NCBI RefSeq assembly: GCF_017650195.1
Contig: NZ_JAGCFH010000020.1
Coordinates: 1-35,667, forward strand
Reading direction: 5' to 3'
Length of the DNA: 35,667 bases
Source: Ruminococcus sp.
GTDB taxonomy: Bacteria; Bacillota; Clostridia; Oscillospirales; Ruminococcaceae
A program made the position numbers and the translations under genes. The notes beneath the pieces are model-generated. The model worked only from the letters and a program-made list of their open reading frames with translations. It had not been told where the DNA came from and ran no database searches. Below are positions 3,951 through 29,149 of this stretch, one piece after another (within the stretch, counting starts at the first letter, position 1; every line of letters begins with the position of its first letter).

Positions 3951-5219
3951 TTATAATGCATTGTATCTTATCTCGCCCTTTGATATAGTAACGAGAGGCT
4001 TTCCTGTAAACTCCATGCCCTTGAATACTGTATTCTTTGACTTTGAATGCAATTTTTCAGGTTCTACTGTCCATTTTCTGTCTATGTCGGCGATAACCAG
4101 ATCGGCTGTGCTTCCCTCTCTGATACACGGTGTATCAAGTCCCAGTATCTTACGGGGATTTATACACATAAGCTCCACTACTCTGTTAAGGCTTATCTCT
4201 CCTGTATGATACAGTGCTGTGAGGGTTGCCGCAAGAGAGGTCTCAAGTCCCACAACACCGTTTGGAGCCTTTTCAAAATCAGCCTTTTCCTCTGCGGCAT
4301 GGGGAGCGTGATCCGTGATGATACAATCTATAGTGCTATCCTTTATGGCTTCGATTATCGCTCTTACATCCTCAGGAGTCCTCAGCGGCGGATTCATTCT
4401 GTAGTCCGCATCACGCTTTTCAAGAAGCTTATCTGTGAGCATGAAGTAGTGAGGAGCAGTCTCGCATGTGACCTTAACTCCTCTCGACTTGGCAAAGCGT
4501 ATCATTGCTGCGCTGCCCTCTGTTGAAACATGGCATATATGTATCCTTGCGTCCACTGATGAAGCAAGTATCATCTCACGGGCTGTTATGTAGTCCTCGG
4601 AAGCTCTGTCCATGCCTTTGACTCCAAGCCTTTCGGAGGTCTCGCCCTTGTTCATTATACCGCCGTTTATTATGCTCAAATCCTCGCAGTGAGAAGCAAC
4701 GAGAAGTCCGTTTTCCTTTGAAAGCTCCAAAGCCTTTCTCATATTTTCTGCATTCTCAACAGGCCTGCCGTCATCGGAAATACATATACAGCCTGCCGCT
4801 TTCAATGCGTCGTAGTCGCATAGGCCGTTTCCACTCATGCCGCCTGTTATGCAGCCTACAGGATATACGTCAACTCCCGTTCCCTTTGCCTTTCCGATGA
4901 TATAGCTTATAGTTTCCGGATGGTCGCATGGAGGCTTGGTGTTCGGCATTGCAAGAACTCCTGTCACTCCTCCTGCCAATGCCGCGGCACAGCCTGTGAG
5001 CACATCCTCCTTATGGGTGAAGCCTGGGTCACGGAGATGAACATGCATATCGAACAGTGACGGCATAAGCACAAGTCCTGTTCCGTCGATGATCTGTTCT
5101 GCATTCTCTGTTATACCGCTGTATATCCTTGCGATAATTCCGTCCTTTATCAGTACGTCTGCTGTTGTATCCGTTATATTATCAACTGCTCGTATATTCC
5201 TTATCAGAATAGATGACAT
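3951..5219 (-). CDS. pyrC: Dihydroorotase
   Basis: This zinc amidohydrolase cyclises carbamoyl aspartate to dihydroorotate. The 422 residues fit the class I (Bacillus PyrC) type. The metal motif HVHLRDPG has His59 and His61. MPNTKPPCD, SDDGRPVENAENM and IITDHAPHAAEEK (near residue 300) are further family signatures. The C-terminal segment ends in the small beta domain usual for the family. The start at 5219 has AGAGAGGTATAT in front. It lies 31 bp from pyrR and 17 bp from pyrF in the same operon. No aspartate carbamoyltransferase (pyrB) is present between pyrR and pyrC, unlike the Bacillus order; it must be elsewhere. Confidence 0.95.
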   Translation of the reverse strand: MSSILIRNIRAVDNITDTTADVLIKDGIIARIYSGITENAEQIIDGTGLVLMPSLFDMHVHLRDPGFTHKEDVLTGCAAALAGGVTGVLAMPNTKPPCDHPETISYIIGKAKGTGVDVYPVGCITGGMSGNGLCDYDALKAAGCICISDDGRPVENAENMRKALELSKENGLLVASHCEDLSIINGGIMNKGETSERLGVKGMDRASEDYITAREMILASSVDARIHICHVSTEGSAAMIRFAKSRGVKVTCETAPHYFMLTDKLLEKRDADYRMNPPLRTPEDVRAIIEAIKDSTIDCIITDHAPHAAEEKADFEKAPNGVVGLETSLAATLTALYHTGEISLNRVVELMCINPRKILGLDTPCIREGSTADLVIADIDRKWTVEPEKLHSKSKNTVFKGMEFTGKPLVTISKGEIRYNAL

Positions 5220-5250
5220 ATATACCTCTCTTTCAGTTTGTGGTGGATAT

Positions 5251-5772
5251 TCAGTAGATAGCTACTCCGTCGCTGCCGTCGATCTCCTCAACAGAAACCC
5301 TTACAACCTCGCTGTGGGATGTTGGAAGATTCTTCCCTATATAATCCGGACGTATTGGAAGTTCTCTGTGTCCGCGATCGATAAGCACAGCAAGCTGTAT
5401 TGAGCGCGGTCTGCCCCGCTTTATAAGAGCATCTATGGCAGCCCGTGAGCTTCTTCCAGTAAATATCACGTCGTCCACTATAACTACGTTCTTGTCCGTA
5501 ATATCAAAGGGTATCTCCGTCTTTTCAGCGTCTCCGCCCGATTTGCTGTCGTCGCGGTAGGGCGTGATATCAAGTGAACCGAAAGGGACCGTGTTTTTTT
5601 CGAGCTCTGAAAGCTTTTCTGCAATACGTCTTCCGATAGGAACACCTCTTGACAGAATACCAACTATGCACAGATCCTCGGTGCCCTTGTTTCGCTCGAT
5701 TATCTCGTAAGAGATACGGGCAATAGCACGTTGCACAGCCTTATCGTCCATGATAATGCGCTTCGACTCCAT
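5251..5772 (-). CDS. pyrR: Bifunctional pyr operon attenuator / uracil phosphoribosyltransferase PyrR
   Basis: PyrR binds pyr mRNA when UMP or UTP is high and favours termination; it also has uracil phosphoribosyltransferase activity. The PRPP-binding signature is NVVIVDDVIFTGRSSRAAID. The longest frame starts with a TTG at 5796, but that codon sits inside the U-run of the upstream terminator. The ATG at 5772 (MESKRIIMDDKAVQ) follows AAAGGAGAACAGTGT and gives 173 residues, close to the usual 180. It is first in the operon, downstream of its own RNA target. Identity is secure from the motif together with the binding site. Confidence 0.96.
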   Translation of the reverse strand: MESKRIIMDDKAVQRAIARISYEIIERNKGTEDLCIVGILSRGVPIGRRIAEKLSELEKNTVPFGSLDITPYRDDSKSGGDAEKTEIPFDITDKNVVIVDDVIFTGRSSRAAIDALIKRGRPRSIQLAVLIDRGHRELPIRPDYIGKNLPTSHSEVVRVSVEEIDGSDGVAIY

Positions 5773-5794
5773 ACACTGTTCTCCTTTCAGCAAC

Positions 5795-5823
5795 AAAAAA
5801 TGCCCCCCGCGCGGCAGGGAGCA
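5795..5823 (-). terminator. Attenuator terminator of the pyr operon
   Basis: On the minus strand, TGCTCCCTG-CCGCG-CGGGGGGCA forms a 9-bp stem (two G-U pairs) followed by TTTTTT, ending 22 nt before the pyrR start. Part of its 5' arm (CCUGCC) can also pair with GGCAAGG at the 3' edge of the PyrR-binding hairpin. This gives the mutually exclusive antiterminator expected for PyrR control. Confidence 0.88.
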
Positions 5824-5869
5824 TACTTATAGTTATAGCTATGTTATAATTACAGTATCAAATAACTCG

Positions 5870-5900
5870 CCTTGCCGACCTCACGGGATCGAATTAAAGG
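5870..5900 (-). promoter_or_regulatory. PyrR-binding hairpin (anti-antiterminator)
   Basis: The leader RNA reads CCUU-UAAUU-CGA-UCCCGUGAGG-UCG-GC-AAGG. The lower stem is CCUU/AAGG, with an internal bulge and an upper stem CGA/UCG. The loop UCCCGUGAGG matches the conserved PyrR-recognised sequence (UCCxGxGAGG). It lies between the promoter at 5922-5950 and the terminator at 5795-5823. This implies repression of pyrR-carB when UMP is abundant. Confidence 0.9.
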
Positions 5901-5921
5901 GTAGTTTCAATTAACAGAAAT

Positions 5922-5950
5922 ATTATATCACATTATGTTTCTCTTGTCCA
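5922..5950 (-). promoter_or_regulatory. Promoter of the pyr operon
   Basis: On the minus strand the -35 is TGGACA and the -10 is TATAAT with a 17-bp spacer. A TG two bases before the -10 gives an extended -10 (TGATATAAT). The expected transcript start lies just before the PyrR-binding hairpin. Confidence 0.85.
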
Positions 5951-6049
5951 GTGATTTCAGTAATATTATTATTTATTTACAAAAAGCCGCTCTTAAGGTT
6001 GCCGCTGATTGTAGAGCATTTCGGTATACGAAAATTTTTCGCAGACTAT

Positions 6050-6077
6050 TTGATTTTACAGGAAAATGTGGTATAAT
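6050..6077 (+). promoter_or_regulatory. Promoter of trmB
   Basis: TTGATT, a 16-bp spacer and TATAAT lie 30 bp upstream of the trmB start, divergent from the pyr promoter. The ribosome binding site GGAGG is at 6096-6100. Confidence 0.72.
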
Positions 6078-6106
6078 TATTATCAGTACAATCACGGAGG
6101 TAATTT

Positions 6107-6769
6107 ATGAGAATACGTCATAAACCATGGGCTAAGCCTGAATTGGAGACTTGTCCCTTTTATATACAAGAGCCGCAGAAGCAGATAGGTCACTGGAGAG
6201 AGCTTTTCAGCGATCCTGACAAGCCGCTATACGTGGAGTTGGGCTGCGGCAAAGGCGGCTTCATATCACAGGCTGCTCCTGCTCATCCGGAAGCTAATTT
6301 CATAGCTATGGACATAAAGAACGAGATGCTAGTCCTCGCAAAGCGCAAGCTGGAAGCCGCTTACGCGATAAAGGGAACTTCTCCGGATAATGTCCGCATA
6401 GCAATACAGAACATCGAGCGTCTCGAGCTTGCATGGGACGAAAACGACCGTGCAGAACGGATATACATCAATTTCTGTAACCCGTGGCCTAAATCCAAAC
6501 ACAAAAAGCGCCGTCTGACACATACCCGCCAGCTTGTGAATTATAAAAAGTTCCTCCGCGGCGAACTCTGGTTCAAGACTGATGACGACGAGCTTTTCGA
6601 GGAGTCATTTGAGTACTTCGCGGAGGCAGGCTTCAGGATAAAATACAAAACCTACGATCTCCACGCAGAAAGTCCTTACGAAAACTTTGTCACCGAGCAT
6701 GAGAAAATGTTCTCCGACGAAGGCAAGAAAATAAAGTTCCTGATAGCTGAACCTGTAAGGGAGGATTAA
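6107..6769 (+). CDS. trmB: tRNA (guanine-N7-)-methyltransferase
   Basis: This SAM-dependent enzyme methylates G46 in the variable loop of tRNA. The 220 residues match the family. The SAM-binding loop VELGCGKGGFISQAA sits near residues 43-57, followed by NFIAMDIKNEM. The TrmB signature NPWPKSKHKKRR is near residue 125, and ELWFKTDDDELFE lies in the C-terminal part. The ATG at 6107 follows CGGAGGTAATTT. It is transcribed divergently from pyrR and is followed after 1 bp by a small gene. Assignment is firm. Confidence 0.95.
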   Translation: MRIRHKPWAKPELETCPFYIQEPQKQIGHWRELFSDPDKPLYVELGCGKGGFISQAAPAHPEANFIAMDIKNEMLVLAKRKLEAAYAIKGTSPDNVRIAIQNIERLELAWDENDRAERIYINFCNPWPKSKHKKRRLTHTRQLVNYKKFLRGELWFKTDDDELFEESFEYFAEAGFRIKYKTYDLHAESPYENFVTEHEKMFSDEGKKIKFLIAEPVRED

Positions 6770-22535: not shown

Positions 22536-22564
22536 TTGCATAAGTGTGGCAAAAATGGTATAAT
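22536..22564 (+). promoter_or_regulatory. Promoter of the M16C peptidase gene
   Basis: TTGCAT, a 17-bp spacer and TATAAT. It lies inside the longer open frame starting at 22544, which supports the start at 22595. Confidence 0.82.
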
Positions 22565-22594
22565 CATACTATGAATATACTCAGGAGGTACTGT

Positions 22595-25447
22595 ATGAAT
22601 ATAAACGATACTATGCACGGATTTAGGGTAACACGTATAGCTCCTGCCCCGGACTGCGGCTCGAAATTAATCGAGATGAGCCATGAAAAGACGGGAGCAA
22701 GACTGATATGGCTGAAAAACGATGGTGAGAACAAGCTCTTCTCAATAGCTTTTAGGACGCCGCCCTCGGACGATACGGGAATATTCCACATACTTGAGCA
22801 CTCTGTACTCGGAGGCTCAAAGAAATACCCAGTGAAGGAGCCGTTCCTTGAGCTCATGAAGGGAACTATGAACACATTCCTGAACGCAATGACATATCCC
22901 GACAAGACTGTATTTCCCGTTTCCAGCAGAAACGATACGGACTTCATGAATCTTACTAGGGTCTATCTCGATGCTGTGTTTGATCCTGCCATATACTACA
23001 ATCCCAACATCTTCTATCAGGAGGGCTGGCACATAGAAATGCGTAGCGAATCTGATACTCCAGTATACAAGGGCGTAGTCTTCAATGAGATGAAGGGTGC
23101 TATGTCATCAGTGTACAGCCGTATGGAATCGGAGATGATGAACGCCCTCTATCCGGACAGTTGCTACCGTTTCGAGTCCGGAGGACTTCCCGAAGCTATA
23201 ACCGACCTTACATATCAGCATTTCATAGACGGTCACAAGACTTACTACCACCCGTCAAACTCCTATATATACCTTGACGGTCCAGTCGATATAGACGCAG
23301 TGCTTGAACTAATCGACGGCGAATACCTCAGCCGCTTCGAAAGGCGCGAGGTAAAAAGTGAGATACCCGTCCAGAAGCCCATACCTTCCTCCGTCAAGAA
23401 GGCTTACTACGAGATATCCGCAGACGAGGATGAAGCTGCTCATACCTACTACCTATCAGGCAAGATACTCGGAGGCTACGAAGAACGCGAAAGAATAACG
23501 GCAGCCGCCATCCTCGGCGAAGCTCTTACAGGTTCAAACGACGCTCCCCTGAAACGCGCCGTCCTTAATACGGGACTCTGCCTTGACGTTTCACTCGATG
23601 TCAGCGACGGCATATTCCAGCCCTTCGGCTGCCTCTGTATAAACAACACCGACGAAGAGAACTGCGACAAGCTGAAAGAGGCTATCCGTGCCGCAGTTAC
23701 TGAGCTCTGTGAAAACGGCATCGACCGCAAGCTCCTTAAAGCTGCTATAGACCGCCATGAGTTCCGTTTTCGTGCAGGCGGAGAGCCGCGAGGTCTCACA
23801 AGGAATATTTCCGCACTTTCTGCATGGCTCTATGGCGGTGATCCTCTCTCCTACCTCGAATTGGGAGAGGTATACAATTCTCTCCGTAAAAGAACTGATA
23901 CTGGCTACTTTGAGAATCTTCTTAGAGAATGGCTCCTTGACGATGACAACCGTGCAGAGCTGTACCTCTTGCCATCTCGCACCTACGGCGAGGAACTGAA
24001 AAAAGCCGAAGAAAAGCGCATAGCTGAGGTAGTCGGCAATCTTGCCTGTGAAGAGCGTTCCGTTATTATCGAGCAGAACAGACAGCTCGACGAATGGCAA
24101 CAGTCCGTGGATACTCCAGAACATATTGCCACCATGCCCCACCTTGCCATTTCAGAAGTAGACGAAAAGCCAATCGCTTACGAAACATCTGAGGAAAAGG
24201 TATCCGGCGTTACTATTCTCCGCCACCCTGCCTCAGATACGGGCATAACCGCACTTAATCTCTATTTCTCCCTTGCAGACCTCTCCGAAGATGAGCTGTC
24301 TGCCGCTGCCGCAGCGACAAAACTTTACGGAGAACTGCCGACCAAAAGGAGCTCCGCCGCCGAACTCCAGCGCAGGATAACAGGTACTCTCGGCGAGATC
24401 TACTTCACTGTAAGCGTATTCTCGCGTAATGGCGTTAAGGATAAATGCTCCCCCTACTTTATGCTGACCACTCGTTTTCTCGACAGAAATACAACCGAAG
24501 CTCTCGACCTTATTTCCGAGATACTCACAGAAACAAGCTTTGACGATACGGACACCGTTCGCGAGCTTCTCATGCAGTCGGACGAGAATTTCAAGCAGTC
24601 GATCATCGCAAACGGTCACACCTGCTCAATGAGCCGCGTCCGTGCAGCGCTCTCCGCAGAAGCTGCCGTTTCCGAGCTTGTTTCGGGCTATGAGGCATAC
24701 AAGCGTCTCCACGAAGCAGTAAAGGCTCCGGAAAAGCTGACAGAAACCATAAAGTCACTCAGCCGTATCTTCTGCACCTCCCGTCTCTGCGCAAGCGTAA
24801 CGAGCACAGGCAATGTCTCAATAGAGCCCCTTCTGAAAGCTCTCCCCACCGGTGAAAAGCCGGCAAGCGAGGAAATGAGCTTCACTCTTGACATACCCGA
24901 AAAACAGGGAATCATTATCCCCTCCGGCGTATCCTACTCGGCTATGGTTTTCCCCGACGACTCGGCAGACAAGGCTGTACGCAGCGTTCTCTTCCGGGCA
25001 CTTTCCCTCGAATACCTCTGGAACGAGGTCAGAGTAAAGGGCGGAGCCTACGGCACAGGCGCTTTCATGGACGCAAAGGGAGAGCAGTCCTTCTACTCAT
25101 ACCGCGACCCCTCCCCTGCCGCGACCTTAGATACATACCGCAGGTCTGCGGACTTCATTAACAGCTACTGCAGCGGATCCCCCGATATAACGCAGTATAT
25201 CATCAGTAGCATAGCCAAGGACGAACCTCTCATGTCAGACGGCAACAAGAGCCGCCACGCGGACGGTCTGTGGTTCAGAGGCATAAGCTATGAAGAAAGG
25301 GCCGCTGAAAGGAAGCGTATGCTCAGCGTAACTGCAAATCAACTGAAAGAGGCGGCGGAAAAGCTCCGCAGCTTCGGAAATATATGCGTAATGGGCAGTG
25401 AAGCAGCTATGGAAGGTCTCGGACTTACCGTCGAGAGTCTGACATAA
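22595..25447 (+). CDS. M16C family peptidase (presequence protease-like)
   Basis: This large zinc peptidase of the insulinase/PreP type degrades unstructured peptides inside a closed chamber. The inverted zinc motif HILEH is at residues 65-69 (HxxEH), with the distal Glu at about residue 165 in VVFNEMKGAMSS. The C-terminal half has the family's inactive partner domains and RVKGGAYGTGAFMD, which binds substrate. The ATG at 22595 follows TCAGGAGGTACTGT and gives 950 residues, the usual size. There is no signal peptide. It is monocistronic and divergent from the M42 operon, so both ends of peptide turnover are encoded here. Confidence 0.93.
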   Translation: MNINDTMHGFRVTRIAPAPDCGSKLIEMSHEKTGARLIWLKNDGENKLFSIAFRTPPSDDTGIFHILEHSVLGGSKKYPVKEPFLELMKGTMNTFLNAMTYPDKTVFPVSSRNDTDFMNLTRVYLDAVFDPAIYYNPNIFYQEGWHIEMRSESDTPVYKGVVFNEMKGAMSSVYSRMESEMMNALYPDSCYRFESGGLPEAITDLTYQHFIDGHKTYYHPSNSYIYLDGPVDIDAVLELIDGEYLSRFERREVKSEIPVQKPIPSSVKKAYYEISADEDEAAHTYYLSGKILGGYEERERITAAAILGEALTGSNDAPLKRAVLNTGLCLDVSLDVSDGIFQPFGCLCINNTDEENCDKLKEAIRAAVTELCENGIDRKLLKAAIDRHEFRFRAGGEPRGLTRNISALSAWLYGGDPLSYLELGEVYNSLRKRTDTGYFENLLREWLLDDDNRAELYLLPSRTYGEELKKAEEKRIAEVVGNLACEERSVIIEQNRQLDEWQQSVDTPEHIATMPHLAISEVDEKPIAYETSEEKVSGVTILRHPASDTGITALNLYFSLADLSEDELSAAAAATKLYGELPTKRSSAAELQRRITGTLGEIYFTVSVFSRNGVKDKCSPYFMLTTRFLDRNTTEALDLISEILTETSFDDTDTVRELLMQSDENFKQSIIANGHTCSMSRVRAALSAEAAVSELVSGYEAYKRLHEAVKAPEKLTETIKSLSRIFCTSRLCASVTSTGNVSIEPLLKALPTGEKPASEEMSFTLDIPEKQGIIIPSGVSYSAMVFPDDSADKAVRSVLFRALSLEYLWNEVRVKGGAYGTGAFMDAKGEQSFYSYRDPSPAATLDTYRRSADFINSYCSGSPDITQYIISSIAKDEPLMSDGNKSRHADGLWFRGISYEERAAERKRMLSVTANQLKEAAEKLRSFGNICVMGSEAAMEGLGLTVESLT

Positions 25448-25464
25448 ACCGATAAAAAGCAAAT

Positions 25465-25503
25465 CAGCCATAAAGAAGCATCAAAAAAACTTCTTTATGG
25501 CTG
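25465..25503. terminator. Bidirectional terminator
   Basis: CAGCCATAAAGAAG and CTTCTTTATGGCTG form a perfect 14-bp stem with an 11-nt loop, between the convergent M16C and radical SAM genes. TTGTTATT follows on the plus strand and TTTGCTTTTT on the minus strand. Confidence 0.9.
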
Positions 25504-25541
25504 TTGTTATTATCAAATTTAAGTGTAATTCATTGTTTTTA

Positions 25542-26615
25542 TCAGAACAGGATATCCTTGAAGCAGAGTTGCGGCTCATTTTTATCAAAGTCCCAGCTAT
25601 GAAAAGAATCACCGTGACAGAACTCCTTCTGGTCACACTTCTGACAGACAGCATTATCGTCAGAGAGATCTCGTCTGAATATCTGGAACTTATTCTCCCA
25701 CACCTCGCTGAATCTGTCGCGAAGGATATTGCCCTGTACGAACTCCGGACGGCGTTCGATATCGAGACAGGCAACTATATCGCCGTTAGTGCTTATACTT
25801 GCAGTGTAAAGACCTGCGGTACACAGATAGTACCAATCCCTCACCTCGCGCTCGTACTCCATGCCAAGGTAATGGCTGCAACCATAAGCCACCGGCTCGC
25901 CCGATATCCTCTTGCTCCTTATAAATTCAAACAGGGTTCTGTAATCGTCATCTGTGAGAAGTAGCTCTGGAAAGGTTTTGGCACGTCCCATAGGCTCCAT
26001 ATTTACAACTCTCCATGAGTCGATATCCATTTCGTTAAATATACTGAAAAGCTCGTCAAGCTCGCCTATACTCTTATGAGTAACGACTGTCGTGACCTGA
26101 ACGTGCTCGAAGCCGCCGATGCGGATAAGGCTCTCGATGCCCTCCATTGCTTTTTTATAACCGCCGGGAGTTCTTCTGAAAGCGTCATGTGTCTCTTCAA
26201 GGCCGTCGATGCTTATAGAAATAGTCTTCATTCCAACTTTTTTCAGCTCACGGGCGATATGGTCGTCTATGAGTGTGCCGTTGGAGGTCATTCCCCACTG
26301 GAAGCCAAGCTCGTTTGCTGCTCCGAGAATATCGAAAAAATCCTTTCTGAGAAGGGGCTCTCCGCCAGTGATATCGAGCATTTTGCCTTTTGTGGACATA
26401 TCCTCCTTAAGCTGCGTCAGAAAAGTGCGGTACTGCTCCACTGTCAGTTCATCGGAGGGTACCTCTCCACATTTGCTTCCGCAATGCAGACATCTCTCGT
26501 TGCAACGTAGGGTAAGCTCAAGGAAAAGATTGCGTAGCTGAGGTTTTTTCATAAGAGTGCTACGGTAATCCCTCATCTGCTCGAGATGAGTGCGTTTCAT
26601 ATTGATATCGAGCAT
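25542..26615 (-). CDS. Radical SAM/SPASM-like maturase next to a dockerin protein
   Basis: This 357-residue radical SAM enzyme has the cluster motif CNERCLHC (Cys38, Cys42, Cys45) and the SAM contact GGEP at residues 84-87. The C-terminal extension carries a Cx12Gx4C motif (Cys265, Gly278, Cys283) and CQKCDQKEFC (Cys324, Cys327, Cys333), plus Cys351. It is SPASM-like, although the standard CxxxC Cys after Cys333 is replaced. Such enzymes commonly modify peptides or proteins. It starts one base after the stop of the dockerin gene, whose Glu codons supply its purine-rich ribosome binding site. The dockerin protein is the obvious candidate substrate, but this is inferred from context. A specific maturase family was not recognised. 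Confidence 0.9.
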   Translation of the reverse strand: MLDINMKRTHLEQMRDYRSTLMKKPQLRNLFLELTLRCNERCLHCGSKCGEVPSDELTVEQYRTFLTQLKEDMSTKGKMLDITGGEPLLRKDFFDILGAANELGFQWGMTSNGTLIDDHIARELKKVGMKTISISIDGLEETHDAFRRTPGGYKKAMEGIESLIRIGGFEHVQVTTVVTHKSIGELDELFSIFNEMDIDSWRVVNMEPMGRAKTFPELLLTDDDYRTLFEFIRSKRISGEPVAYGCSHYLGMEYEREVRDWYYLCTAGLYTASISTNGDIVACLDIERRPEFVQGNILRDRFSEVWENKFQIFRRDLSDDNAVCQKCDQKEFCHGDSFHSWDFDKNEPQLCFKDILF

Positions 26616-26616
26616 A

Positions 26617-27444
26617 TCAGTCTTCCTCTTCCTCGCGCTCTAATTCCTCCAGTATCGCACCTGCCTCTTCTATCTCCTCCAGAGCCTCATCAATAGCCTC
26701 TTTTGTCCTTTCGATAGACGGCTTTACACCATAGAGCGATATGACTACATCGCCTCTCGGATCATAAGCAGTAGTAAATGTTGTTGTCGTTGTGGTATCG
26801 TCCTTCTCCTTGAGGGTAGTCTTTTCGGACAGTATGCTTCCACTGTCGTACTCGCTGAAGTCCTTGATAGCTCCGAGAAGGAACCTCTGCAGGAGCACAA
26901 GGTCTGAAACGTCTACTTTTCCGTCAGAATTGATATCGCTGAGGAGCTTTGCCCTCTTGTCCTTATATTCGTCGAAGAGAATAGCTCTTCTAAGTGCTAT
27001 TGCGTCAAAAGTATCAACAATGAGATCTCCGTTGACGTCGCCCTTCATTCTAGAATCTATATCCTCGTCAGGATCGCTTACTGTAGTCGTTGTTGAACCG
27101 AATACCCAAGGCGGACCATAAAGGGTCTGAGTAGTCGTAGCAGTCATCTCATGGTAATCGGAAGTTGTAAATGTGGTAGTACCGGGTACCCACGGAGCAC
27201 CGTAAAGTGTCTGTGTGCTTGTGGTAGTAAGGTAAGTCATATTAGCCGAAGTAACAGTCCCTAAATTCTCCCCGTCGTCATCCTTTTCCTTGTTCCAGTC
27301 AGAATCCGTGAGGGTCAAGGACTCCACAGGATCTACCTTTGGACGGTTAATTCCTTCATTCTCTGAGCAATCGGCAGGAAGTGCCGACATATTTGCCGCT
27401 GCAAACATTGCCGCAGTCATAACGGTAAAGATACTTTTTTTCAA
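26617..27444 (-). CDS. Secreted dockerin protein with repeated LYGxPWVxG motifs
   Basis: The 275 residues comprise a signal peptide (about 1-24), a charged stretch, then two Thr-rich repeats: QTLYGAPWVPGTTTF (78-92) and QTLYGPPWVFGSTTT (106-120). A type I dockerin follows (about 134-196). Its calcium loops read DVNGDLIVDTFD and DINSDGKVDVSD, so it should bind a cohesin. After the dockerin come a TTTTTTF tract, another LYG (237-239) and an acidic coiled helix ending EREEEED. The start is TTG at 27444, with GGAGAGG upstream. No catalytic domain is seen. It shares an operon with a radical SAM enzyme, unusual for a cellulosome-type component. Confidence 0.88.
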   Translation of the reverse strand: MKKSIFTVMTAAMFAAANMSALPADCSENEGINRPKVDPVESLTLTDSDWNKEKDDDGENLGTVTSANMTYLTTTSTQTLYGAPWVPGTTTFTTSDYHEMTATTTQTLYGPPWVFGSTTTTVSDPDEDIDSRMKGDVNGDLIVDTFDAIALRRAILFDEYKDKRAKLLSDINSDGKVDVSDLVLLQRFLLGAIKDFSEYDSGSILSEKTTLKEKDDTTTTTTFTTAYDPRGDVVISLYGVKPSIERTKEAIDEALEEIEEAGAILEELEREEEED

Positions 27445-27504
27445 TTTGAACCTCTCCTCTCATAATCAGGCGTGCAGTGCAATCTACGTCTGAGCTTTAT
27501 TTTT

Positions 27505-27549
27505 CTGGAGAGAGAAACTTACTAACTCCCATGCAGCTCATCTCTCCAG
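27505..27549 (-). promoter_or_regulatory. Leader hairpin of the dockerin operon
   Basis: On the minus strand CTGGAGAGA (27549-27541) pairs with TCTCTCCAG (27513-27505) across a 27-nt loop and is followed by AAAAATAAAG. It lies just downstream of the expected transcript start. It could stabilise the mRNA or be part of a leader switch; it matches no riboswitch I know. Confidence 0.5.
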
Positions 27550-27560
27550 TGGTTACTTAT

Positions 27561-27589
27561 ATTTTACTCCATATATGGTCATTTGTCAA
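27561..27589 (-). promoter_or_regulatory. Promoter of the dockerin-radical SAM operon
   Basis: On the minus strand TTGACA, a 17-bp spacer and TAAAAT. The consensus -35 and ideal spacing make this one of the best promoters in the window. It implies a leader of about 110 nt. Confidence 0.85.
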
Positions 27590-27600
27590 CTATAATCTTG

Positions 27601-27772
27601 AAAAAGGTACATAAAAATTATTTAATATGCTCCTGCTATATGCGGTATTTATAATAAATATTTAACTATCTGTTGAGAAAAAAACTTTTGAAAAAGTTAT
27701 TCCTTAAATTCCTTAAACCTTAAACTCCAAAACTTCTTTTTTATTTTACTTTAATTATGTCGCTTAAGTAAT
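27601..27772. other. AT-rich gap with no gene
   Basis: No coding potential is visible. It contains the short stem AACTTTT-GA-AAAAGTT (about 27683-27698) and three direct CCTTAAA-type steps at about 27702-27722. It separates the dockerin promoter from the structured RNA region. Confidence 0.4.
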
Positions 27773-27798
27773 AAAAAAGACCTGTAAGTATACAGGTC
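27773..27798 (-). terminator. Terminator of the structured RNA / RodA transcript
   Basis: On the minus strand GACCTGTA-TACT-TACAGGTC followed by TTTTTT. The 8-bp stem is perfect. Confidence 0.9.
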
Positions 27799-27960
27799 GC
27801 CTCTATCAGGTTGTAAAATCAGATAAAAGTATTTGGAAAGAAGCACGGGGTGCCTTCCTGTAGCACAGGGAAATGTCACGCATTTACAGGGAAGCGTGCC
27901 TCAGTCATAGATAACTTTCTTCAGAAAGTTCCATACCGATGATTTCATATAGATCTTAGA
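27773..27960 (-). ncRNA. Candidate structured RNA ending in a terminator
   Basis: The minus strand between the RodA/FtsW gene and the dockerin promoter has layered pairing. There is a hairpin AACTTTC-TGAA-GAAAGTT (27913-27930) and a closing stem GAGGCACG/CGTGCTTC (27895-27902 with 27840-27847). Inside it, CTTCCCTGTA pairs with TACAGGAAG (27885-27894 with 27854-27862, one bulge). It ends in an intrinsic terminator. It resembles no riboswitch or housekeeping RNA I can recall, including T-box, TPP, 6S and SRP RNA. No strong promoter is seen at its 5' end, so it may be a long structured 3' UTR of the RodA/FtsW gene. The limits are approximate. Confidence 0.45.
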
Positions 27961-27991
27961 TATACTTATCTCACTTATGCATGAACATTTT

Positions 27992-29149
27992 TTAATCATC
28001 GTCTTCTTCATCATAGAATACATTATAGTTCACAGCGCGGTGACTGTAGGTACTCAGTACAAGACCTATCATAGCGTACATACTCATCAGAGCCGTACCG
28101 CCGGCGCTAACGAATGGCAGGGGTACTCCGATAACAGGAGCAACTTTCAGAACCATACCTATATTCATGACGCAATGTGTAAAGATCAGTCCGAAGGCGC
28201 CCATGCATATAAACTTTCCGAGGTGGTCGCGACATACCCTGCTGTCGCCGAATATTTTCAGGCAGATATAGGTAAGAACTATGATTATGCCCACTGTGCC
28301 GATAAAACCAAATACCTGACCTGCATAAGTGAATATGAAGTCATTGTGTATCTCTGGAACAGTTATATAGTCATCTGGCTTGCCGAAAAGTCCCTTTCCG
28401 AAAACTCCTCCCGACTTCAGGGCTGCAAGTCCCAGATCCTGTTGATACTCAATATACTCAGGGTCTGTACCGGGATGAAATAGTATCAGTATACGCTTTT
28501 TGTGGAATTCGCTCAACGCAAAGAACCACATTCCCGCAAGTCCAGCTGCAATAACAAAGGGAGCAGCCGCGATGTACTTCCATGATATCTTTGCGGAGCA
28601 TATCATGAAGGCAAAGATGCCTGCAAATACTATAGCCGTTCCGTAGTCGCCCTGTAAGCCAACTATGCCGATAGGTATCATGCCGTGTATGACTATGAGC
28701 AGAATATGCAGTGGCTTGTTCATTTCCTCCTCGTCACGGGAAAGGTGGTAGGCGAAGGTAAGTATGAACGCCAGCTTCAATATCTCTGAAGGTTGAAACT
28801 GTATAAATCCGAGATTAAGCCACGCCTGATCGTCGGCCCCCTCTCGCCTGTAGCCAAGACCTGTAAAGGTAAGGGCAGTCATTCCGAGAGTCACAGGCAC
28901 GAATACCACCCAAAGCTTTACTAGCTTTCGGTAGTCTATGAAGGATATCACTATGGCTGCGATAAGTCCTCCCACCATAGAAAACGCCTGTGTTTTCCAG
29001 TAGCTAGAGCCCACGGTCTCAAGCACCTTGTTGTATGTTATTGAATATATGAGCAGTGTGCTTATGGAAGCGCAGAGCGTGACTGCAAAGAGCAGTCCTG
29101 CATCGATGCTGTGCTTGCCAGAAGGTAGCTTTTTGAATGCAGATTTCAT
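27992..29149 (-). CDS. SEDS family peptidoglycan glycosyltransferase (RodA/FtsW)
   Basis: This is a polytopic membrane enzyme that polymerises lipid II into glycan strands with a partner class B PBP. The 385 residues and about ten membrane spans fit the family. Signatures are FQPSEILKLAFILTFAYHLS, VPEIHNDFIFTYAGQVFGF (with the conserved Asp) and GVPLPFVSAGGTALMS. The loops and absence of a long N-terminal extension resemble RodA more than FtsW or SpoVE, but the assignment within the family is uncertain. The start follows AAGGAGAGACA. It lies downstream of a decayed comM gene and upstream of a structured RNA. No PBP partner is adjacent. Confidence 0.92.
   Translation of the reverse strand: MKSAFKKLPSGKHSIDAGLLFAVTLCASISTLLIYSITYNKVLETVGSSYWKTQAFSMVGGLIAAIVISFIDYRKLVKLWVVFVPVTLGMTALTFTGLGYRREGADDQAWLNLGFIQFQPSEILKLAFILTFAYHLSRDEEEMNKPLHILLIVIHGMIPIGIVGLQGDYGTAIVFAGIFAFMICSAKISWKYIAAAPFVIAAGLAGMWFFALSEFHKKRILILFHPGTDPEYIEYQQDLGLAALKSGGVFGKGLFGKPDDYITVPEIHNDFIFTYAGQVFGFIGTVGIIIVLTYICLKIFGDSRVCRDHLGKFICMGAFGLIFTHCVMNIGMVLKVAPVIGVPLPFVSAGGTALMSMYAMIGLVLSTYSHRAVNYNVFYDEEDDD

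Follow-up and report, generated by a model that had tools for sequence, protein, structure and literature searches.

The window analysed here is a stretch of 35,667 nucleotides of Ruminococcus sp. DNA (contig NZ_JAGCFH010000020.1, positions 1 to 35,667), from a relative of cellulose-digesting gut species. It contains, on the minus strand, a gene for a dockerin protein followed by a gene for a radical SAM/SPASM enzyme. Conservation of the sequences indicates that the enzyme very probably acts on the repeated Tyr-Gly (YG) sites of its neighbour's product. The best explanation of the locus as a whole, which we hold with moderate confidence, combines a splicing enzyme, an exported dockerin substrate and a protease-inhibitor role. 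Sequence comparison revealed the gene pair, its conservation, the shared site motif, the place of the enzyme beside the spliceases in trees and the presence of cohesins in the genome. The main features are as follows.

25542..26615, minus strand: radical SAM/SPASM enzyme, 357 amino acids, TIGR04133-like (below cut-off); open reading frame (ORF) list, Pfam, AlphaFold, Foldseek
26617..27444, minus strand: dockerin protein, 275 amino acids, TTG start, probably exported, proposed substrate; ORF list, Pfam
27370..27444, minus strand: probable Sec signal peptide, about residues 1-25; by reading of the sequence
27187..27207, minus strand: site 1, LYGAPWV, residues 80-86
27103..27123, minus strand: site 2, LYGPPWV, residues 108-114
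26716..26736, minus strand: site 3, LYGVKPS, residues 237-243 (Tyr 238)
26758..26766, minus strand: YDP of the proposed recognition element [YF]xP, at -11 to -9 relative to site 3
26875..27045, minus strand: type I dockerin domain, residues 134-190; Pfam Dockerin_1

Conservation of the gene pair

The initial annotation had made its proposal dependent on conservation of the pair beyond this strain, which was confirmed: with its own genome counted, the enzyme is encoded in 50 of 100 genomes of a genus sample and in 12 of 197 genomes of a family sample. With TIGR04133 as the query at E 1e-60, 2 of 398 genomes of a phylum sample were found, the own genome again included. A scan of named genomes gave at least 573 relatives among at least 594 pattern-matching stretches; the 80 relatives kept are titled Ruminococcus (including R. 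flavefaciens FD-1 and ATCC 19208), Oscillospiraceae, Clostridiales, Clostridia and Bacillota bacteria. In all, 123 loci yielded 93 distinct enzymes.

Under a rule that ignores the motif, the pattern YG.P is carried by the ORF nearest upstream in 84 of the 93 distinct relatives, and by the ORF nearest downstream in one of 81, this single ORF presumably being similar to ribulose-phosphate epimerase. Eight of the nine upstream misses arose because the rule had picked an overlapping frame; these loci do have a YG.P ORF, which brings the relatives with such a neighbour to 92 of 93. Shuffling of the partner sequences gave an expectation of 5.0 YG.P and 0.42 YGPP occurrences, against 263 and 242 observed, in a test where the choice of ORF favoured YG. 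By these sequence counts, YG.P neighbours accompany the enzyme far more often than chance would give. The same conservation contradicts the suggestion that the pair is confined to this strain, and makes it unlikely that the enzyme acts on a different nearby peptide.

Motif of the Tyr-Gly sites

The partners contain 376 YG sites, of which 337 have proline at +2 to +4; sites within 14 residues of a start were left out of these statistics. Among the 337 sites, proline occupies +2 in 86% and +3 in 79%, phenylalanine or tyrosine is found at +6 in 51%, and the +2 residue, when not proline, is Ala, Ile, Thr, Val or Ser. The element [YF]xP lies exactly at -11 in 94 of the 337 sites, as compared with 0 to 5 at seven other counted offsets. 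Where this anchor (x not G/T) is combined with proline at +3, the intervening pair is YG in 71 of 77 cases, and glycine is kept in 266 of 290 [VLAIMEDT]Y-x-x-P sites. In its strongest form the site reads [Y/F]-x-P-(8)-Y-G-x-P, the tyrosine being preceded by Val, Leu or Ala. The motif is found on unrelated carriers, namely dockerin proteins, lipoprotein-like proteins, DUF805 proteins and a zinc ribbon.

What is conserved in the partner is its repeated YG sites, and action of the enzyme on them is therefore the best reading. The initial annotation had singled out LYGxPWV repeats; the two sites of this form are present, but the conserved core is X-Y-G-x-P and not LYG/PWV. Not mentioned there is LYGVKP at Tyr 238, the third YG site. 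This site 3, YDPRGDVVISLYGVKP, carries the anchor at -11, which the linker sites 1 and 2 do not.

Family, signature and predicted fold of the enzyme

The enzyme matches the Pfam families Radical_SAM (E 6e-22) and SPASM (E 3.1e-9). The cysteines C38, C42 and C45 of the CX3CX2C motif, as well as the auxiliary-cluster cysteines C265, C283, C324, C327, C333 and C351, are invariant in 43 sequences (43 of the 93 enzymes entered this alignment, which also served for the AlphaFold model). The model has a mean pLDDT of 92.7; its closest structures in Foldseek are SkfB, BlsE, SuiB, a sactipeptide maturase and anSME. A single N-terminal helix precedes the barrel, and no RRE-like domain was seen in the model by eye. 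The cluster cysteines, the Pfam matches and the fold together identify a radical SAM/SPASM peptide or protein maturase.

The best NCBIfam match is TIGR04133 (rSAM_w_lipo) at 278.5 bits, which does not reach the curated cut-off of 425 bits. Distant relatives from three loci (L046, L049 and L051) score 253.7-301.5 bits against the same model, and enzymes of Parabacteroides (607.9 bits) and Treponema (451.4 bits) exceed the cut-off. Against TIGR04103, the PlpX type, the window enzyme scores 117 bits of the 725 required. The enzyme is accordingly filed neither as a member of TIGR04103 nor, by score, as a member of TIGR04133; on present evidence, splicease-like is the working description.

TIGR04133 is a model of the hypoth_equivalog class with no stated reaction. 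This leaves room, at rather low probability, for a TIGR04133-like maturase with an undescribed Tyr-Gly reaction related to tyramine excision, for example dehydrogenation, epimerisation or cleavage. Consistent with it are the higher scores of the enzyme against the AhbD and MftC models than against TIGR04103, the lack of a conserved RRE gene beside the enzyme and the one N-terminal helix before the barrel; the close match of its sites to splicease-side precursors (LYGLPP, AYGVPI), including the proline at +3, speaks against it.

Relationship with spliceases and other systems

In a maximum-likelihood tree (tree 1), TIGR04133 enzymes and the window group are placed with the Nostoc TIGR04103, GDL-motif and Agathobacter enzymes (support 98/92), apart from MftC, TIGR04347 and others. 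Addition of AhbD, NirJ2 and two further TIGR04103-like enzymes (tree 2) gave the same grouping (99/98). The trees included 19 of the 93 enzymes; tree 2 was built without the long rows X_Rhizo1, X_Rhizo2 and X_Paenib2, and of its two AhbD rows one, L177, does not reach the AhbD cut-off. TIGR04133 rows have the residues G46, W201 and E255 in common with almost all splicease rows, whereas AhbD, NirJ2, MftC and the other outgroup rows lack them or have them rarely (W201 in one of 11).

Neighbouring peptides show a similar relationship. A Nostoc splicease-side precursor ends SIALYGLPPELF (LYGLPPELF), and further splicease-side neighbour peptides contain TTAYGIARP (L188) and LAYGVPIHG (L189). On a plasmid record of Agathobacter rectalis (L148), a peptide at 4724-4937 ends GPVMYGTGVRM and is followed by a splicease-side radical SAM gene (5022-6176) and an MFS transporter gene; this is a possible unannotated spliceotide locus. 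The resemblance in sequence between the splicease-side peptides and LYGPPWV and VYGPPEYF, found in the window group, is striking. Plasmid records of Parabacteroides, Phocaeicola and Treponema encode TIGR04133-type enzymes next to proteins with CEYGSPHANF, CEYGTPSADY and CYGMPENYY, respectively; the first and third of these neighbours match TIGR04134, and the Phocaeicola neighbour lies downstream of its enzyme. DUF1843 peptides beside TIGR03913-type (GDL-motif) enzymes (L166, L170 and L171) contain X-Y-G in four of eight cases: RPYGPAM, MLYGGAM, KPYGVAI and QPYGAGI.

With the PlpX/PlpY spliceases (TIGR04103, IPR026482), the window system shares the side of the tree and a radical SAM/SPASM gene adjoining a ribosomal X-Tyr-Gly substrate, several of them YGxP; such a neighbour is present in the window, with three sites, and in 92 of 93 relatives. 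The PlpX substrate is a peptide with a Nif11/NHLP leader, whereas the protein encoded here is a probably exported dockerin protein of 275 amino acids with no leader peptide. The enzyme has 357 amino acids as compared with 420 in the Nostoc splicease, and a PlpY/RRE gene lies beside PlpX, whereas none was found beside the window enzyme and no PlpY-like gene within its operon. The TIGR04133/TIGR04134 pair (rSAM_w_lipo and putative lipoprotein) is likewise similar, as the best NCBIfam match and in its neighbouring exported-type protein with YGxP, and differs in that the window partner has three YG sites and a dockerin. The window partner has no match to TIGR04134 at E 0.1, and none was found in its own genome at E 10. 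The GDL-motif DUF1843 systems (TIGR03913) lie on the same side of the trees, half of the eight peptides bearing the X-Y-G at the N-terminus; these peptides are short and have no evident signal, in contrast to the window protein.

An association between a radical SAM enzyme and a putative lipoprotein is implicit in the NCBIfam pair TIGR04133/TIGR04134. Literature searches for TIGR04133, TIGR04134, YGPP with radical SAM and the name of the lipoprotein gave nothing; they did not extend to the 2022 splicease survey, which may include relatives. For radical SAM together with dockerin, only unrelated work (transcriptomes and a Klebsiella genome) appeared in the accessible parts of the records. The survey of Scott et al. 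(2022) lists 939 predicted splicease systems, as cited in the available text of PMC10533398.

Reaction type and alternatives

The available text of PMC10533398 describes excision of tyramine (C8H9NO, -135.0757 Da) by PlpXY at X-Tyr-Gly, naturally MYG and LYG, and the transfer of splicing to other proteins with minimal PlpA2-core tags such as PIRPGYGLPI. Since the window enzyme groups with these X-Y-G tyramine-excising spliceases, a backbone splice is a better guess than a crosslink; by this analogy, the reaction is somewhat more probably tyramine excision than any other.

The initial annotation had proposed a carbon-carbon, thioether or other crosslink in the dockerin protein. Its claim that the enzyme acts on this protein agrees with the YG sites, and a carbon-carbon bond is possible, while the trees favour a backbone splice. 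The nearest present form of the crosslink proposal is a carbon-carbon or carbon-oxygen bond at YGxP, a three-residue cyclophane from the tyrosine ring to i+2 that would stiffen the linkers; we regard it as unlikely, though less so than the undescribed Tyr-Gly reaction considered above. SPASM enzymes that form i to i+2 cyclophanes are known (available text of PMC11002830), some cyclophane enzymes act on Tyr motifs, judging by the title of a cited paper, sites 1 and 2 lie in Thr-rich linkers, and the crosslinking maturases SkfB, SuiB and a sactipeptide enzyme are among the closest structures. The prevalence of proline at +2, with Ala, Ile, Thr, Val or Ser as the other residues, is more in keeping with a Y-G-specific reaction than with attack on +2; the near-constant glycine is not obviously needed for a cyclophane, and the trees place the enzyme with the X-Y-G spliceases. 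Thioether chemistry of the sactipeptide or ranthipeptide kind was rejected for the window protein, the only cysteine of which is residue 26. At least one cysteine after residue 40 is found in 25 of 91 partners with YG.P.

Several results weigh against tyramine excision, or against parts of the explanation built on it. The enzyme of locus L043 is a true exception, with no YG.P neighbour; having no partner, this locus is absent from the partner alignment, and directly downstream of its enzyme lies a gene for what we take to be a papain-like exported protein. Two of the three window sites do not have [YF]xP, site 3 has one extra residue before its proline, and YE replaces YG at three full-anchor sites. 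By hidden Markov model score, the window enzyme is closer to AhbD (149.7 bits), MftC (136.6), NirJ2 (132.6), NirJ (122.3), WgkB (121.7), TIGR04053 (118.2) and NirJ1 (117.8) than to TIGR04103. Few families are represented in the trees, and the meeting of long branches in tree 1 is a warning; H143, T176 and R259, at first apparently specific to spliceases, are common in AhbD and NirJ2 rows too. Among the neighbouring peptides, four of eight DUF1843 peptides have YM or YA instead of YG, two of three precursors of the Nostoc locus are without YG, and beside the Tropicibacter enzyme no peptide with a clear X-Y-G was seen. No small gene is conserved within 1200 bases downstream of the enzyme (the best group occurs in five of 93 loci; an unlinked RRE was not sought), and within 1200 bases upstream no RRE-like gene is conserved, the groups there being YG.P genes and a uvrA-like gene. 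PlpX, by comparison, acts together with its RRE partner PlpY (available text of PMC11002830), and the available text of PMC10533398 reports that most insertions into FtsZ, including the LYG tag PIRPLYGLPI, were not accepted by PlpXY. The inhibitor role, for its part, is taken over from reviews and from a passage of discussion.

Partner proteins and possible further substrates

Dockerin_1 matches 68 of the 92 partners at E 0.01. The dockerin was rejected as the feature recognised by the enzyme, since the other 24 partners have no match at this threshold, although diverged dockerins may be present in some of them, a few being matched by EF-hand models. The choice of the dockerin protein as the partner in the initial annotation is upheld in its conserved, repeated YG sites, the dockerin itself being optional. 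Other partners include small lipoproteins, two DUF805 proteins and one zinc ribbon; among 34 partners without our home-made calcium-loop pattern, 15 show a lipobox-like pattern. The DUF805-type membrane partners (L048:660-1403 and L049:2761-3339) have VYGPPP sites in their tails.

A further YG.P ORF upstream of the partner was found in 44 of 84 loci. In three of them it is the uvrA-like ORF only, which was taken for a chance occurrence, so that 41 of 84 loci (among L013-L128) are counted, with one to three extra YG.P genes, often for a small lipoprotein. A lipoprotein and a dockerin protein thus often share one enzyme, as judged from gene order. In L045, five tandem genes with a single YGPP site each, four of them for short probable lipoproteins, precede the enzyme gene (at 1486), and in L096 three tandem YGPP genes (571-2949) do so, two with dockerin-like repeats by eye. 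In the window, no extra YG.P gene was seen upstream of the dockerin gene.

In 17 of 84 loci, for example L077, a gene that we take to be uvrA-like is found upstream of the partner at a distance of 100-490 bases; this neighbourhood is probably conserved by descent.

A double zinc-ribbon protein of the own genome (L154:1501-1752; G000:C203:14695-14946) carries YAPEKDMISIIYGPPP between its two ribbons, with the same spacing. The protein is encoded in 11 of 100 genus genomes; YGPPP is present in all 11 and in a family member (L196), and [YF]xP at -11 in 10 of the 11 and in the same family member. On a contig from a viral collection (L132, IMGVR_UViG_3300029305_011494), a similar zinc-ribbon gene lies directly upstream of an enzyme with 59% identity, possibly a mobile copy or a host stretch. 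In the genus sample, eight of 11 genomes with the zinc-ribbon protein also have the enzyme, which is not significant (P 0.10); in both samples together nine of 12 do (P 5.6e-5, kinship ignored). The three without the enzyme (G021, G022 and G052) are 64, 66 and 74% complete.

A second exported YGPP protein was not found in the own genome with the pattern NTNTAYGGNCCNCC, which misses some codon contexts. It matched five places, as compared with nine for the reversed-pattern control: the window, two ATPases with Walker A YGPPG (presumably RuvB and another ATPase), the zinc-ribbon protein, and a place in L149 that lies in no 60-codon ORF with YGPP.

The same spacing in the zinc-ribbon protein and the arrangement on the viral contig would also suit an incidental dockerin adjacency, with another protein, such as this unlinked YGPPP protein, as the real substrate. 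We consider this very improbable: the zinc-ribbon protein occurs in 11 of 100 genus genomes as compared with 50 for the enzyme, and 92 of 93 enzymes have a YG.P neighbour. The zinc-ribbon protein is better read as an extra substrate of an enzyme that acts on its neighbour's product. Together, the unlinked zinc-ribbon protein and the extra YG.P genes beside the pair in other genomes suggest that the enzyme has more than one substrate.

The dockerin protein and cohesins of the genome

Dockerin_1 covers residues 134-190 of the window protein (E 1.9e-9), and no other Pfam domain was recognised in it. Both calcium loops, DVNGDLIVDTFD and DINSDGKVDVSD, look intact by eye, which together with the cohesins of the genome characterises a type I dockerin. 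A single 1164-codon open frame holds five of the nine cohesin matches in the own genome. The window protein has 33 matches there at E 0.001 (self counted), mostly at the dockerin region; the dockerin accordingly has binding partners. The probable signal peptide, Thr-rich linkers, type I dockerin and genomic cohesins resemble those of the cellulosomal dockerin proteins of R. flavefaciens, from which the window protein differs in having no other Pfam domain and a radical SAM gene in its operon.

Gene layout

Both ORFs lie one base apart as initially annotated, the TGA of the dockerin gene at 26617-26619 and the ATG of the radical SAM gene at 26615-26613 (by eye). The TTG start of the dockerin gene is preceded a few bases 5' by AGGAGAGG (by eye), and its position is occupied by ATG in close relatives, for example in L010. 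Further features of the locus are as follows.

27561..27589, minus strand: promoter-like site TTGACA-17-TAAAAT, 11/12; promoter scan
27450..27458, minus strand: probable ribosome binding site AGGAGAGGT of the dockerin gene; by eye
25465..25503, no strand assigned: inverted repeat CAGCCATAAAGAAG/CTTCTTTATGGCTG, possible two-way terminator; by eye

The single promoter claimed for the pair corresponds to the promoter-like site (27589-27561, minus strand), about 115 bases 5' of the dockerin gene. The scan of 25400-28000 gave five such sites as compared with a shuffle mean of 4.6; since this is chance level, the site is consistent with a promoter and is not evidence of one. The inverted repeat lies between the enzyme gene and a convergent M16-peptidase-like gene (22544-25447) and is not listed by the terminator scan. 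A search of 25400-28000 for an RNA element in the operon gave no Rfam match at the gathering score.

Proposed function and significance

From these comparisons we infer a modification of the YG sites, its type and timing, export of the product and an inhibitor role. The two genes would form a small protein-modification unit. Before secretion, while its neighbour's product is still in the cytoplasm, the enzyme would recognise short sites in it without an RRE protein encoded nearby, and would act at X-Tyr-Gly in a PlpX-like manner, excising tyramine and rejoining the backbone. Leu80, Leu108 and Leu237 would thereby become alpha-keto-beta-amino (ketoamide) residues. After export of the modified protein, the dockerin would bring these electrophilic groups to cohesin-bearing scaffolds, where their most plausible role would be to inhibit secreted proteases capable of attacking the cellulosome. 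The available texts of PMC11117315, PMC10373908 and PMC11002830 describe spliceotides as inhibitors of proteases; the protective role on the cellulosome is taken from this analogy and is speculative. In its full extent, namely backbone-spliced cellulosome dockerins, a leader-free enzyme, ketoamide arrays as protease inhibitors and the same tag on lipoproteins, membrane proteins and zinc-ribbon proteins, the proposal is tentative.

If the proposal is true, beta-amino acids would be introduced post-translationally into full-length structural proteins of a machine that degrades fibre, through a short tag and without a leader or a neighbouring RRE, and a leader-free tag of about 16 residues may be of use in protein labelling. 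One enzyme would then modify several proteins of a cell through the shared [YF]xP...XYGPP tag, and TIGR04133-like systems, to which the family name assigns none, would gain a specific function. Reactive and possibly protease-blocking groups would be left on the dockerin protein, a hint of how gut cellulosomes may resist proteases.

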